Under the pieces are notes generated by a model, which saw only the letters and a program-made list of their open reading frames with translations, made no database searches and was not told the origin of the DNA. Position numbers and translations under genes: made by a program. 34,542 nt of DNA from Aquabacterium sp. (lineage in GTDB: Bacteria; Pseudomonadota; Gammaproteobacteria; Burkholderiales; Burkholderiaceae_C), in NCBI GenBank assembly GCA_004322345.1, contig SCTQ01000023.1, forward strand, positions 1 to 34,542, given 5' to 3'. Below, in pieces: positions 23,818 through 26,967 of the stretch. Numbering within the stretch: the stretch's first letter is position 1; each line of letters opens with the position of its first letter.

Positions 23818-24382
23818 TGCTGATCTGCGCCTCGTTCTGCACGGTGAAGTTGGGCTTGGGCTCGTAGCCGAAGATCTTCGCCGTCAGGTTGGACGGGAAG
23901 CTGCGCGCCAGCGTGTTGTAGCTTTGCACGGCCTGGATGTATTTGTTGCGCGCCACCGTGATGCGGTTCTCCGTGCCCTCCAGCGTCACGCGCAGGTCCT
24001 GGAAGCCCTGGTTGGCCTTCAGGTTGGGATAGTTCTCGCTGACGACCAGCAGGCGCGACAGCGCGCCGCTGAGCTCGCCCTGGGCCTGCTGGAACTTGTT
24101 GAAGGCCTCTGGGTTGTTCACCAGCTCGGGCGTGGCCTGGATGCTGGTGGCCTTGGCGCGGGCCTCGACCACCTTGGTCAGCGTCTCCTGCTCGAAGTTG
24201 GCCTCGCCCTTCACGGTGGCGACGATGTTGGGTACCAGGTCCGATCGGCGCTGGTACTGGCTGATCACTTCGGACCAGGCGGCCTTGACGGCCTCGTCCT
24301 CGCGCTGGAAGTCGTTGTAGCCGCAGCCCGTCAGCAGCAGGCTGGAGGCCAGCATCAGGGTGGTCAGCAGGCGTCGGATCAT
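23786..24382 (-). CDS. lemA: LemA family lipoprotein
   Basis: This 198-residue protein has a lipoprotein signal ending LLTGC (Cys20) and then the LemA helical domain: YNDFQREDEAVKAAWSEVISQYQRRSDLVPNI, VARNKYIQAVQSYNTLARSFPSNLTAKIFGYE and PNFTVQNEAQISNAPKV-type segments. The function of LemA proteins is not settled; the family is widespread and usually sits next to YgcG/TPM proteins, as here. AAAGGA lies 8 nt before the ATG at 24382. It is the first gene of a three-gene operon and is divergent from the pectinacetylesterase-like gene. Confidence 0.92.
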   Translation of the reverse strand: MIRRLLTTLMLASSLLLTGCGYNDFQREDEAVKAAWSEVISQYQRRSDLVPNIVATVKGEANFEQETLTKVVEARAKATSIQATPELVNNPEAFNKFQQAQGELSGALSRLLVVSENYPNLKANQGFQDLRVTLEGTENRITVARNKYIQAVQSYNTLARSFPSNLTAKIFGYEPKPNFTVQNEAQISNAPKVDFEKK

Positions 24383-24671
24383 GGTGGGGTCCTTTCGGGG
24401 ATCTGAGCGTCAGAGCAGGCCGGGCCGGACAAGTTCGCGCAATCTGTGCCTGCAGATGGCCGCGCGGCGCCGGTCTTCAAGAGGCGGCCAGTGTATGCAG
24501 CCGCCGCGGGCTGTATCCAGCCTCCCCTCGCCCTCAGGGCCGTGGCGCGTTTTAGAGGGATAGCCCTCTGCGGCCCGCTCGCGGCCGCGCGGACATTGCG
24601 GTTTCGTTATGCACCAGAAGCATCGCACCGGCGCCCGGCCGCCGCCGCGAAGCCCAACGAGGAGACACGCC

Positions 24672-25964
24672 TTGCACCACTCGAACACCATCGGCCGCGC
24701 GCTGGCCGTCACGGCCCGCGCCCTGGCGCTGAGCGCCGCCATCCCGCTTGCCGCCTCGGCCGCCACCAGCTACTACAAATGGGAGGCCGTCGAGCTGCCG
24801 GCTTCCAGCGGCGCCTCCTGCGGCAACGGCACACCCTACCGCTTCTTCGTCAACCGCACGCCCTTCTCCAGCAAGACGGTGGTGATCTTCGAAGGCGGCG
24901 GCGCCTGCTGGGCGCAGAACAGCTGCCAGGGCAAGGGCGGCATCCTGACCGCGTCCAACCCCAACGGCGTGCCGGCCAGCTACATGAGCGACATCAACCT
25001 GGCCGTTTTCGGCCTGGTCACGCCCTTCAGCTCGCGCATCCATCCGCTGCAGAGCGTGCAGACGCAGAGCTGGAACATCGTCTACGCCCCGTACTGCACG
25101 GGCGACGTGCACACCGGCAACAAGGTCGCCATCTACAGCGACGCCGATGCGACCAAGCCGCTGACCTACTACCACCGCGGCGGCGTCAACGGCGAGAAGA
25201 TGGCCGAGTGGCTGGGCAAGAACCTGGCGCGCCCGGACAACCTGCTGGTCACCGGCTTCTCCGCCGGCGGCGCGGGGGCGACGGCCAACTACGGCTGGCT
25301 GCGCCTGGCGCTGAACCCGAAGAAGTCGGCCCTGCTGGCCGATGCCGGCCCGCTGTTCAACGTCAACCGCAACGACACGCCCCAGCAGTCGCCCTCGGTC
25401 CTCCTGCACAACAAGATTCGCGCGGCCTGGGGCCTGGACGGCCCTGAGGGCCTGGTGACCAAGCTGCTGACGCGCTACCCGGATGCCGGCACGGCCGACA
25501 ACCTGGGCTCGCTGAACACGGGACTGTCGAAGATCTTCCCGCAGGACCGCCTCGGTTTTGCGGTGTTCCAGCAGGACGGCATCTACTCGGCCTTCTCCTA
25601 CACCGACTTCTATCCCGAGATCGCCGCCACGCCGTCGGGCGCCCAGCGCGATGCGCTGCTCAACGCCAAGTGGCGCCAGGACATCGCCAACTGGCTGCCG
25701 CAGCTGCAGTCGCGCAGCAACATCGGGTACTACATCCCCTACTCGCGTGACCTGCTCAAGGCGCACTGCCTGACCATCGCCACCTTCGGCGGCACCGCGA
25801 TCAAGGAAGCCAACCTGAAGAACGTCGGCGCCTTCGTGGACAACCTGATCGACGGCACGGGCACGCCCATCCGCTCCTTCGAGACCCAGCGCAACACGCA
25901 GAACACGCCGCTGGGCCCGCTGGACAGCCTGCTGCAGCCGGTCTACGAGATCCTGGGCCTGTGA
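24672..25964 (+). CDS. Exported pectinacetylesterase-like (Notum/PAE family) serine hydrolase
   Basis: This 430-residue secreted carboxylesterase resembles the pectinacetylesterase/Notum family. Its catalytic triad can be placed: Ser197 in VTGFSAGGAGA, Asp302 in FQQDGIYS and His365 in LKAHCLT. The oxyanion segment FEGGGACW (73-80) and YCTGDVHTG (141-149) are also family marks. I choose the TTG at 24672, because AGGAG lies 7-8 nt upstream and the product then begins with a normal Sec signal peptide (cut near ASA/ATS at 30). The ATG at 24609 would add 21 Arg/Pro-rich residues. The substrate is uncertain: bacterial members may act on other acetylated polymers. A terminator follows at 26074. Confidence 0.82.
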   Translation: MHHSNTIGRALAVTARALALSAAIPLAASAATSYYKWEAVELPASSGASCGNGTPYRFFVNRTPFSSKTVVIFEGGGACWAQNSCQGKGGILTASNPNGVPASYMSDINLAVFGLVTPFSSRIHPLQSVQTQSWNIVYAPYCTGDVHTGNKVAIYSDADATKPLTYYHRGGVNGEKMAEWLGKNLARPDNLLVTGFSAGGAGATANYGWLRLALNPKKSALLADAGPLFNVNRNDTPQQSPSVLLHNKIRAAWGLDGPEGLVTKLLTRYPDAGTADNLGSLNTGLSKIFPQDRLGFAVFQQDGIYSAFSYTDFYPEIAATPSGAQRDALLNAKWRQDIANWLPQLQSRSNIGYYIPYSRDLLKAHCLTIATFGGTAIKEANLKNVGAFVDNLIDGTGTPIRSFETQRNTQNTPLGPLDSLLQPVYEILGL

Positions 25965-26073
25965 GCCGCCACCTTCTCGACACGCGCATCAACGATAACT
26001 AGCCAGCCGGAACACACCAGCACTGGTCCGCCGAGGAGAGGCCCCCCGCTGACAGGAGCAGGGAGGTCAACGG

Positions 26074-26110
26074 GCCCGCAGGTTCACGAGACCCGCGGGC
26101 TCTTTCATTT
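26074..26110 (+). terminator. Intrinsic terminator after the pectinacetylesterase-like gene
   Basis: GCCCGCAGGT (26074-26083) pairs with ACCCGCGGGC (26091-26100) with one mismatch, and TCTTTCATTT follows. It lies 110 nt after the stop and just before the promoter-like box of the next gene. Confidence 0.65.
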
Positions 26111-26120
26111 GCGGCCCACC

Positions 26121-26126
26121 TATGAT
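26121..26126 (+). promoter_or_regulatory. Candidate -10 box for a leaderless transcript
   Basis: TATGAT lies 7 nt before the ATG at 26134. Transcription from it would begin at or next to that start codon. No clear -35 box is seen. If this is right, the upstream ATG at 26122 is inside the -10 box and cannot be the translation start. Confidence 0.35.
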
Positions 26127-26133
26127 CGCGCGC

Positions 26134-26967
26134 ATGGCAGCCCTCGATCCCGCCCTGGCTCTGCAGGCCGCGCACCGACCACCCGCCGCGGCCCGCGCCC
26201 GGCGGCCGCGCGGCGAGCTGTGCATCATCGGCGGCGCCGGCACGCTGGGTTCGGCCATCGTCGCCGAGGCCCTGTCCCGCGGCGGCTATGCCGGCGTGCA
26301 GGTGGCCGTCACCGAACCCATGCTGGCCGCGCCGCGCGGGCTGCGCGGCTCGCTGCTGCCCGAGGGGCGGCTGGACGACTGGGTGCCGCAGGCCCGCACC
26401 GCGGTGATCGTCATCGACGTTGCCCGCCCGCGCGAGGCCGGCTTCTACATGCCCGGGCTGGACGAACTGCCGCTGCTCAGCACGCGCCTGCACGCCGCGG
26501 GCGTCGAGTCGGTGGCCATCGTGCTGCCCCACGCGCCGGCCCTGCTGCCGGCAGCGCTGCGCGAGGGCCTGCACAACCTGGACGAAGCGGGCATGGCCGA
26601 GGCCGGCTTCTCGCGCCTGCTCTTCGTGCGGCCGGCGGCCGCCACCGCGCGTGGGCCGGGCCAGGCCGTCGCCGCCTGGCCGCAGCGCGTGGCGGGCTGG
26701 CTGCTGTCCAGCCTGTCGTTGATGGTGGCCGACCGCCATCGCCCGGTGCGCGTGGCCCAGGTCGCAGGCTTCGTCTTCGAGGCCCTGCGGCAGTGGGACC
26801 GCGCCGATGCCGAACTCCCGGCGGCGCTGGGCTCGCGCACGCGTGTGGCGCCGGCCGAGGTGGTGTGGGCCGCCGCCCAGCCCGGCGCCCTGCAGGAGGT
26901 GGTCTCCGACTGGCTGCTCGGCCGCATGCCGGAGGCGGGGCGAGGTGCCTCGCCCGCCAGGTACTAG
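26134..26967 (+). CDS. Rossmann-fold NAD(P)-binding protein of unknown function
   Basis: This 277-residue protein begins, after a short Ala/Arg-rich lead, with a clear dinucleotide-binding segment, ELCIIGGAGTLGSAIVAEAL, the GxGxxG-like pattern of extended short-chain dehydrogenases. A strand ending TAVIVIDVARPREAGFYMPG follows. I do not see the catalytic YxxxK of that family, so it may be a binding protein or a divergent reductase. Start: ATG 26134 is preferred over ATG 26122, which lies inside a -10-like box. It lies 60 nt upstream of hemE on the same strand. A link to heme synthesis is possible but unproven. Confidence 0.65.
   Translation: MAALDPALALQAAHRPPAAARARRPRGELCIIGGAGTLGSAIVAEALSRGGYAGVQVAVTEPMLAAPRGLRGSLLPEGRLDDWVPQARTAVIVIDVARPREAGFYMPGLDELPLLSTRLHAAGVESVAIVLPHAPALLPAALREGLHNLDEAGMAEAGFSRLLFVRPAAATARGPGQAVAAWPQRVAGWLLSSLSLMVADRHRPVRVAQVAGFVFEALRQWDRADAELPAALGSRTRVAPAEVVWAAAQPGALQEVVSDWLLGRMPEAGRGASPARY

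Follow-up and report, generated by a model that had tools for sequence, protein, structure and literature searches.

A probable TTG start, preceded by a Shine-Dalgarno motif, for a predicted exported esterase of the pectinacetylesterase/Notum family in Aquabacterium sp.

Results

The open reading frame and its two candidate start codons

We analysed a stretch of 34,542 nucleotides from Aquabacterium sp. (contig SCTQ01000023.1), here called the window. An open frame of 451 codons, counted from the ATG at 24609, runs along its plus strand from 24609 to 25964 and ends with TGA. A TTG (24672-24674) lies in the same frame 21 codons downstream of this ATG, and a protein begun there (24672-25964) would have 430 amino acids. 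Apart from these two, the gene (locus L001) has no ATG, GTG or TTG in the interval that runs from the in-frame stop upstream to the conserved YKWE motif, which we used as an anchor, so the choice of start is between ATG 24609 and TTG 24672.

The TTG is preceded, as a preliminary description of this DNA had noticed, by the Shine-Dalgarno (SD) motif AGGAG, which lies at 24660-24664 (plus strand) with a spacer of 7 nt. A motif scan of the 20 nt before ATG 24609 found no SD motif of at least four bases. We counted how often such an arrangement occurs around the TTG triplets of the window, of which the two strands together contain 597. A five-base SD motif at 4-10 nt was present in 11 cases and AGGAG at 5-9 nt in 3, TTG 24672 being included in both counts. 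Since so few triplets are equipped in this way, the presence of AGGAG before TTG 24672 by chance is unlikely, though possible. In the region 24300-26140 the promoter scan found no sigma-70-like site, and the terminator scan gave one weak terminator-like stem (24588-24600), which is no more than shuffled sequences yield.

Start codons in homologues

Within the genus, members of the esterase family are widespread. Our search of 42 genomes returned 94 matches in 38 of them, with up to five per genome. We read 83 of the 94 for their start (74 and a further 9, the window gene included) and left out 11 fragments or matches at contig edges. The window gene itself is not counted among the 82 close homologues used below, of which 79 are from the genus and three from other genera (L133-L135). 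The counts of stops and the statistics of n-regions cover 73 homologues only. L130, L131 and L132 were excluded from the 82 as remote matches with a different N-terminus and no SD-led start near the anchor. These three are 32-33% identical, have long N-termini of another kind and lie in open frames of 577-589 codons.

Among ATG, GTG and TTG codons, the one whose SD motif at 4-10 nt was longest was taken as the start; in a tie we chose the codon nearest the domain. A few cases were ambiguous. In L077 a single SD motif serves both an ATG at 33 and a TTG at 32; the rule chose the TTG, and we set the start to the ATG against the rule, its spacer being 7 nt compared with 10 nt for the TTG. L056 has an adjacent GTG and ATG (the rule gave the ATG), L083 two ATGs with four-base motifs, and L135 two adjacent ATGs. 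Four homologues lacked an SD motif (L028, L067, L086 and L089) and were assigned their last ATG, so that in these four the start is an ATG by construction.

With these assignments, the start of all 82 close homologues fell on an ATG at the corresponding position, and the window gene was the sole member with TTG. An SD motif of at least four bases stood 4-10 nt before the start in 78 of the 82. The ATG lies 20-59 residues before the anchor in the homologues, and the TTG of the window gene falls within this range at 34. The two paralogues in the host genome (L056 and L057) both have an ATG with an SD motif. The nine nearest homologues, all of the same genus (L002-L009 and L038), are 68-71% identical and resemble the window gene in having an N-terminus like a signal peptide and a start preceded by an SD motif; they differ from it in that all nine start with ATG. 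When 74 start contexts were aligned, the window gene among them, purines peaked at about -12 to -8 and C occupied position -1 in 66. These observations agree with the preliminary description, which had proposed the TTG as the probable start.

The uniform use of ATG in the relatives, the host paralogues included, also raises the question of whether the T at 24672 is real. The base is known from a single assembly of 453 contigs, and a sequencing or assembly error at this position would turn a true ATG into the TTG that we see. TTG is, however, a legitimate start codon and the remaining reading frame is intact, and we regard such an error as improbable. It would leave the start at the same position, so this estimate overlaps with that for the TTG start itself.

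The stretch between the two codons scores as non-coding

According to the preliminary description, the TTG would be refuted if relatives conserved the sequence upstream of 24672. We therefore compared the 21 residues encoded by 24609-24671 with the 30 residues translated ahead of each homologue's start. Against the nine nearest homologues the extension reached a mean score of 20.3, compared with 19.5 (sd 1.6) for shuffled versions, and 60 of 200 shuffles reached the observed value. Against all 73 homologues 89 of 200 did so. The sequence between the TTG and the anchor behaved differently: its mean against the nine nearest homologues was 48.3, the shuffles averaged 22.8 (sd 2.6), and none of 200 reached the observed mean, either here or against all 73. 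The extension is no more like the upstream sequences of the relatives than its own shuffles are, and this test does not refute the TTG.

Codon usage was assessed with a crude start scorer. It was built from a sample of the host genome amounting to 267,451 bases, the window and the paralogue loci included. For training, 156 ORFs were picked by GC3 contrast and 155 were used, the window esterase gene being omitted; among the starts chosen for these 155, 74 lacked an SD motif. The extension had a codon log-odds of -3.86, and the 21 codons after the TTG had +11.3. For comparison, the first 21 codons of the 155 crudely called host genes gave a median of +7.4 (5th percentile -1.4), and 105 open upstream stretches from the same sample gave a median of -5.1. 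The extension scores as non-coding, and codon usage agrees in this with the comparison of homologues.

An in-frame stop within 21 codons before the start was found in 30 of the 73 homologues and was lacking in 43. Among the nine nearest, five have such a stop (L002, L003, L007, L008 and L038) and four do not. In L008 (1501-1563) a TAG lies inside the matched stretch upstream of the start, and the long frame is closed there directly.

If translation began at ATG 24609, the product would be a preprotein of 451 amino acids with a basic n-region of 37 residues ahead of the hydrophobic core. The host's preference for ATG (codon weight +0.82, versus -3.13 for TTG) favours this start, and n-regions of 33 and 39 residues do occur in the family (L004 and L068). 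Against it stand the missing SD motif, the non-coding score of the extension and its dissimilarity from the relatives' upstream translations, as well as the in-frame stops in the corresponding span of the 30 homologues and the rarity of an n-region as long as this one (1 of 73). We consider a start at ATG 24609 very unlikely. The use of both codons seems to us less probable still: they are in frame with each other and the hydrophobic core is kept with either, but the upstream ATG has no SD motif and the extension no coding signature. We judge the stretch 24609-24671 (plus strand) to be untranslated, and the start call at 24672 has a high probability of being correct.

A predicted signal peptide

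Read from the TTG, the N-terminus is (M)HHSNTIGRALAVTARALALSAAIPLAASA-ATSYYKW. It resembles a Sec-type signal peptide, with a basic n-region of charge +2, the hydrophobic core ALALSAAIPL (mean Kyte-Doolittle value 2.07) and an A-x-A site, ending in AASA. The predicted signal peptide would cover residues 1-30 (24672-24761, plus strand) and would likely be cleaved after AASA. The preliminary description had called this signal peptide clean, a judgement that fits both its composition and the comparison with 73 homologues, on which our own assignment of Sec-type features rests.

The n-region counted from the TTG has 16 residues, which falls within the range of the homologues (3-39, median 12, n=73). 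Counted from ATG 24609 it has 37, a length matched in only one of the 73. The length of the n-region alone is not decisive against ATG 24609, since L068 has 39 residues and, among the nine nearest homologues, L004 has 33 with an AGGAG-led ATG of its own.

There is no twin arginine in the n-region that starts at the TTG, and among the 73 homologues RR occurs before the anchor in seven and is not conserved, so the Sec route is the better guess. The 21-codon extension contains TRRHAL, and with the ATG as start this sequence might be misread by a Tat predictor. Four cysteines (Cys50, Cys79, Cys85 and Cys142) are invariant among the 74 aligned members and would suit an exported protein. From its N-terminus, the window esterase is probably exported.

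The hydrophobic core and the A-x-A site are present with either start. The preliminary description had held that the upstream ATG has neither an SD motif nor a clean signal peptide; the first part stands, and the second does not hold for the core and the cleavage site. Its warning that a mis-started annotation would hide the export signal was for the same reason overstated.

Imitation of a gene caller

We used the scorer to see how the two codons would rank. ATG 24609 scored +0.34 (SD -0.48, codon +0.82) and TTG 24672 scored -0.70 (SD +2.43, codon -3.13). Once the extension (-3.86) is dropped, the summed weights give the TTG a lead of about 2.8 nats over the ATG; the SD and codon-usage terms outweigh the heavy penalty on TTG. 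The prior for a TTG start is low, as only one of the 155 crude start calls in the host sample is a TTG. Given the narrow lead, the crude model and this single TTG, real gene callers could pick either start. The warning in the preliminary description that standard annotation may mis-start the gene is reasonable, although the narrow preference of our scorer is for the TTG.

Family, fold and putative active site

The protein matches PF03283, the pectinacetylesterase family, with 57.9 bits against a gathering cut-off of 26.6 (E 1.2e-15 from the ATG and 1e-15 from the TTG), over profile positions 6-199 of 355 only. This bears out the family assignment made in the preliminary description. All 74 aligned members match PF03283 at E 0.001 or better. 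NCBIfam gave no family match for the window esterase. A phmmer match of residues 174-249 to entries for phage L-shaped tail fibres (E 0.003-0.006) was taken as chance because the profile search did not recover it at E 0.001.

The AlphaFold2 model has a mean pLDDT of 90.5. In a Foldseek search of the PDB, the best 50 of 252 matches at E 0.001 or better were all Notum, each with probability 1.00.

Three residues stand out as a candidate catalytic triad, and none of them varies among the 74 aligned members. With numbering from the TTG, Ser197 (25260-25262), within GFSAGG, is the predicted nucleophile and comes directly after the strand 190-196 of the model. Asp302 (25575-25577), the predicted catalytic acid, comes after the strand 293-297, and His365 (25764-25766), the predicted catalytic histidine, after the strand 351-355. 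In the alpha/beta-hydrolase fold the nucleophile, the acid and the histidine follow strands in such an order. This comparison covers the positions of the three residues relative to the strands. His365 is followed by Cys in 44 of the 74 members and by Thr in 29. Judged from sequence and model, the window protein is probably an esterase of the PF03283 (pectin acetylesterase/Notum) family in which the three residues would act as a Ser-Asp-His triad.

Distribution and gene neighbourhood

Outside the genus the esterases are sparse. In a sample of 150 genomes from 141 genera of the wider taxonomic family, eight had a match, and two of these (the host and G026) belong to the same genus. One could speculate that this is a lineage-expanded group of secreted Notum-like esterases whose true substrate is an acyl or polyester ester instead of pectin, a reading that we hold only tentatively and think doubtful.

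We searched six neighbours of the gene in the window (atpC, a 205-aa ORF, a TPM-domain protein, LemA, a 281-aa protein and hemE) by tblastn at E 1e-4 against the loci up to L094, with flanks mostly of 1.5 kb, some ending at a contig edge. The only matches were in L001 and L033, both of them loci of the window itself. The 281-aa ORF (26122-26967) lies between the esterase gene and the putative hemE and has no Pfam match; among the 42 genus genomes it has matches in two, namely itself and G024 (45% identity).

The wider context was viewed as crude ORFs in nine loci, and 10 ORFs from five of them (L115, L117, L118, L119 and L123) were scanned with Pfam. In two of the nine nearest homologues (L003 and L007) an acyl-CoA dehydrogenase gene adjoins the esterase (L115 3948-5765 and L117 7471-9288). 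The other contexts among these 10 ORFs contained FIST, PnrA-like, topoisomerase, molybdopterin oxidoreductase, ferric-reductase-like, AraC regulator, GH31 and M19 peptidase proteins. The acyl-CoA dehydrogenase might hint at an acyl-ester substrate, a weak hint since the other loci differ in context. Taken together, the five Pfam-scanned loci and the tblastn of flanks yield no consistent story about the substrate.

Discussion

Our results are best explained by a start at TTG 24672, led by AGGAG, that gives a 430-aa Sec preprotein and, from it, an exported PF03283 esterase with a Ser-Asp-His triad. We hold this explanation with strong confidence. The computation shows where the SD motif and the starts of the relatives lie, the family match and the Notum-like fold of the model; from these we infer initiation, export, cleavage, the roles of the triad residues, activity and substrate. 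Translation would initiate at 24672, read as TTG and directed by AGGAG at 24660-24664. The first 30 or so residues of the preprotein would serve as the Sec signal peptide, and export and cleavage would release an alpha/beta-hydrolase esterase of about 400 residues from the PF03283 (CE13/Notum) family. On the simplest reading, an ATG has changed to TTG in this lineage, or the assembly carries a wrong base here, within a family that otherwise uses ATG.

The gene is ordinary, and the TTG start matters mainly for annotation. With it the N-terminus of one enzyme, probably an exported one, is fixed, and the case illustrates that a TTG start can be settled by a genus-wide comparison. Apart from annotation, the practical use lies in cloning, where expression constructs should begin at 24672 and not at ATG 24609.

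We looked through titles and abstract openings of the literature on bacterial pectinacetylesterases, CE13 and Notum, and on TTG starts and signal peptides, and among these none was about the window gene and no paper joined pectinacetylesterase with Aquabacterium. As for the substrate, pectin acetate, other sugar esters and lipid or polyester esters are all candidates.

The pectinacetylesterases of PF03283 (CAZy CE13), to which the plant enzymes (PAEs) belong, conserve a Ser, an Asp and a His, as does the window protein. One report describes a Ser-Asp-His triad in plant PAEs, and the His-Cys pair of the window protein resembles the HCQ motif given there (PMC5465549). Another known relative is animal Notum, a palmitoleoyl-protein carboxylesterase, whose triad is given as Ser232, His389 and Asp340 (PMC8172013). 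The window protein matches Notum in a sequence-profile comparison (E 3.6e-10) and in fold (best E 7.3e-15; TM-score 0.54 by query and 0.63 by target). The likeness of fold is distant, with 14-18% identity, an rmsd of 6.1-8.2 and query TM-scores of 0.50-0.56 among the matches listed. The two also differ in their setting: the window protein is bacterial, whereas Notum is an animal esterase that acts on lipidated proteins.
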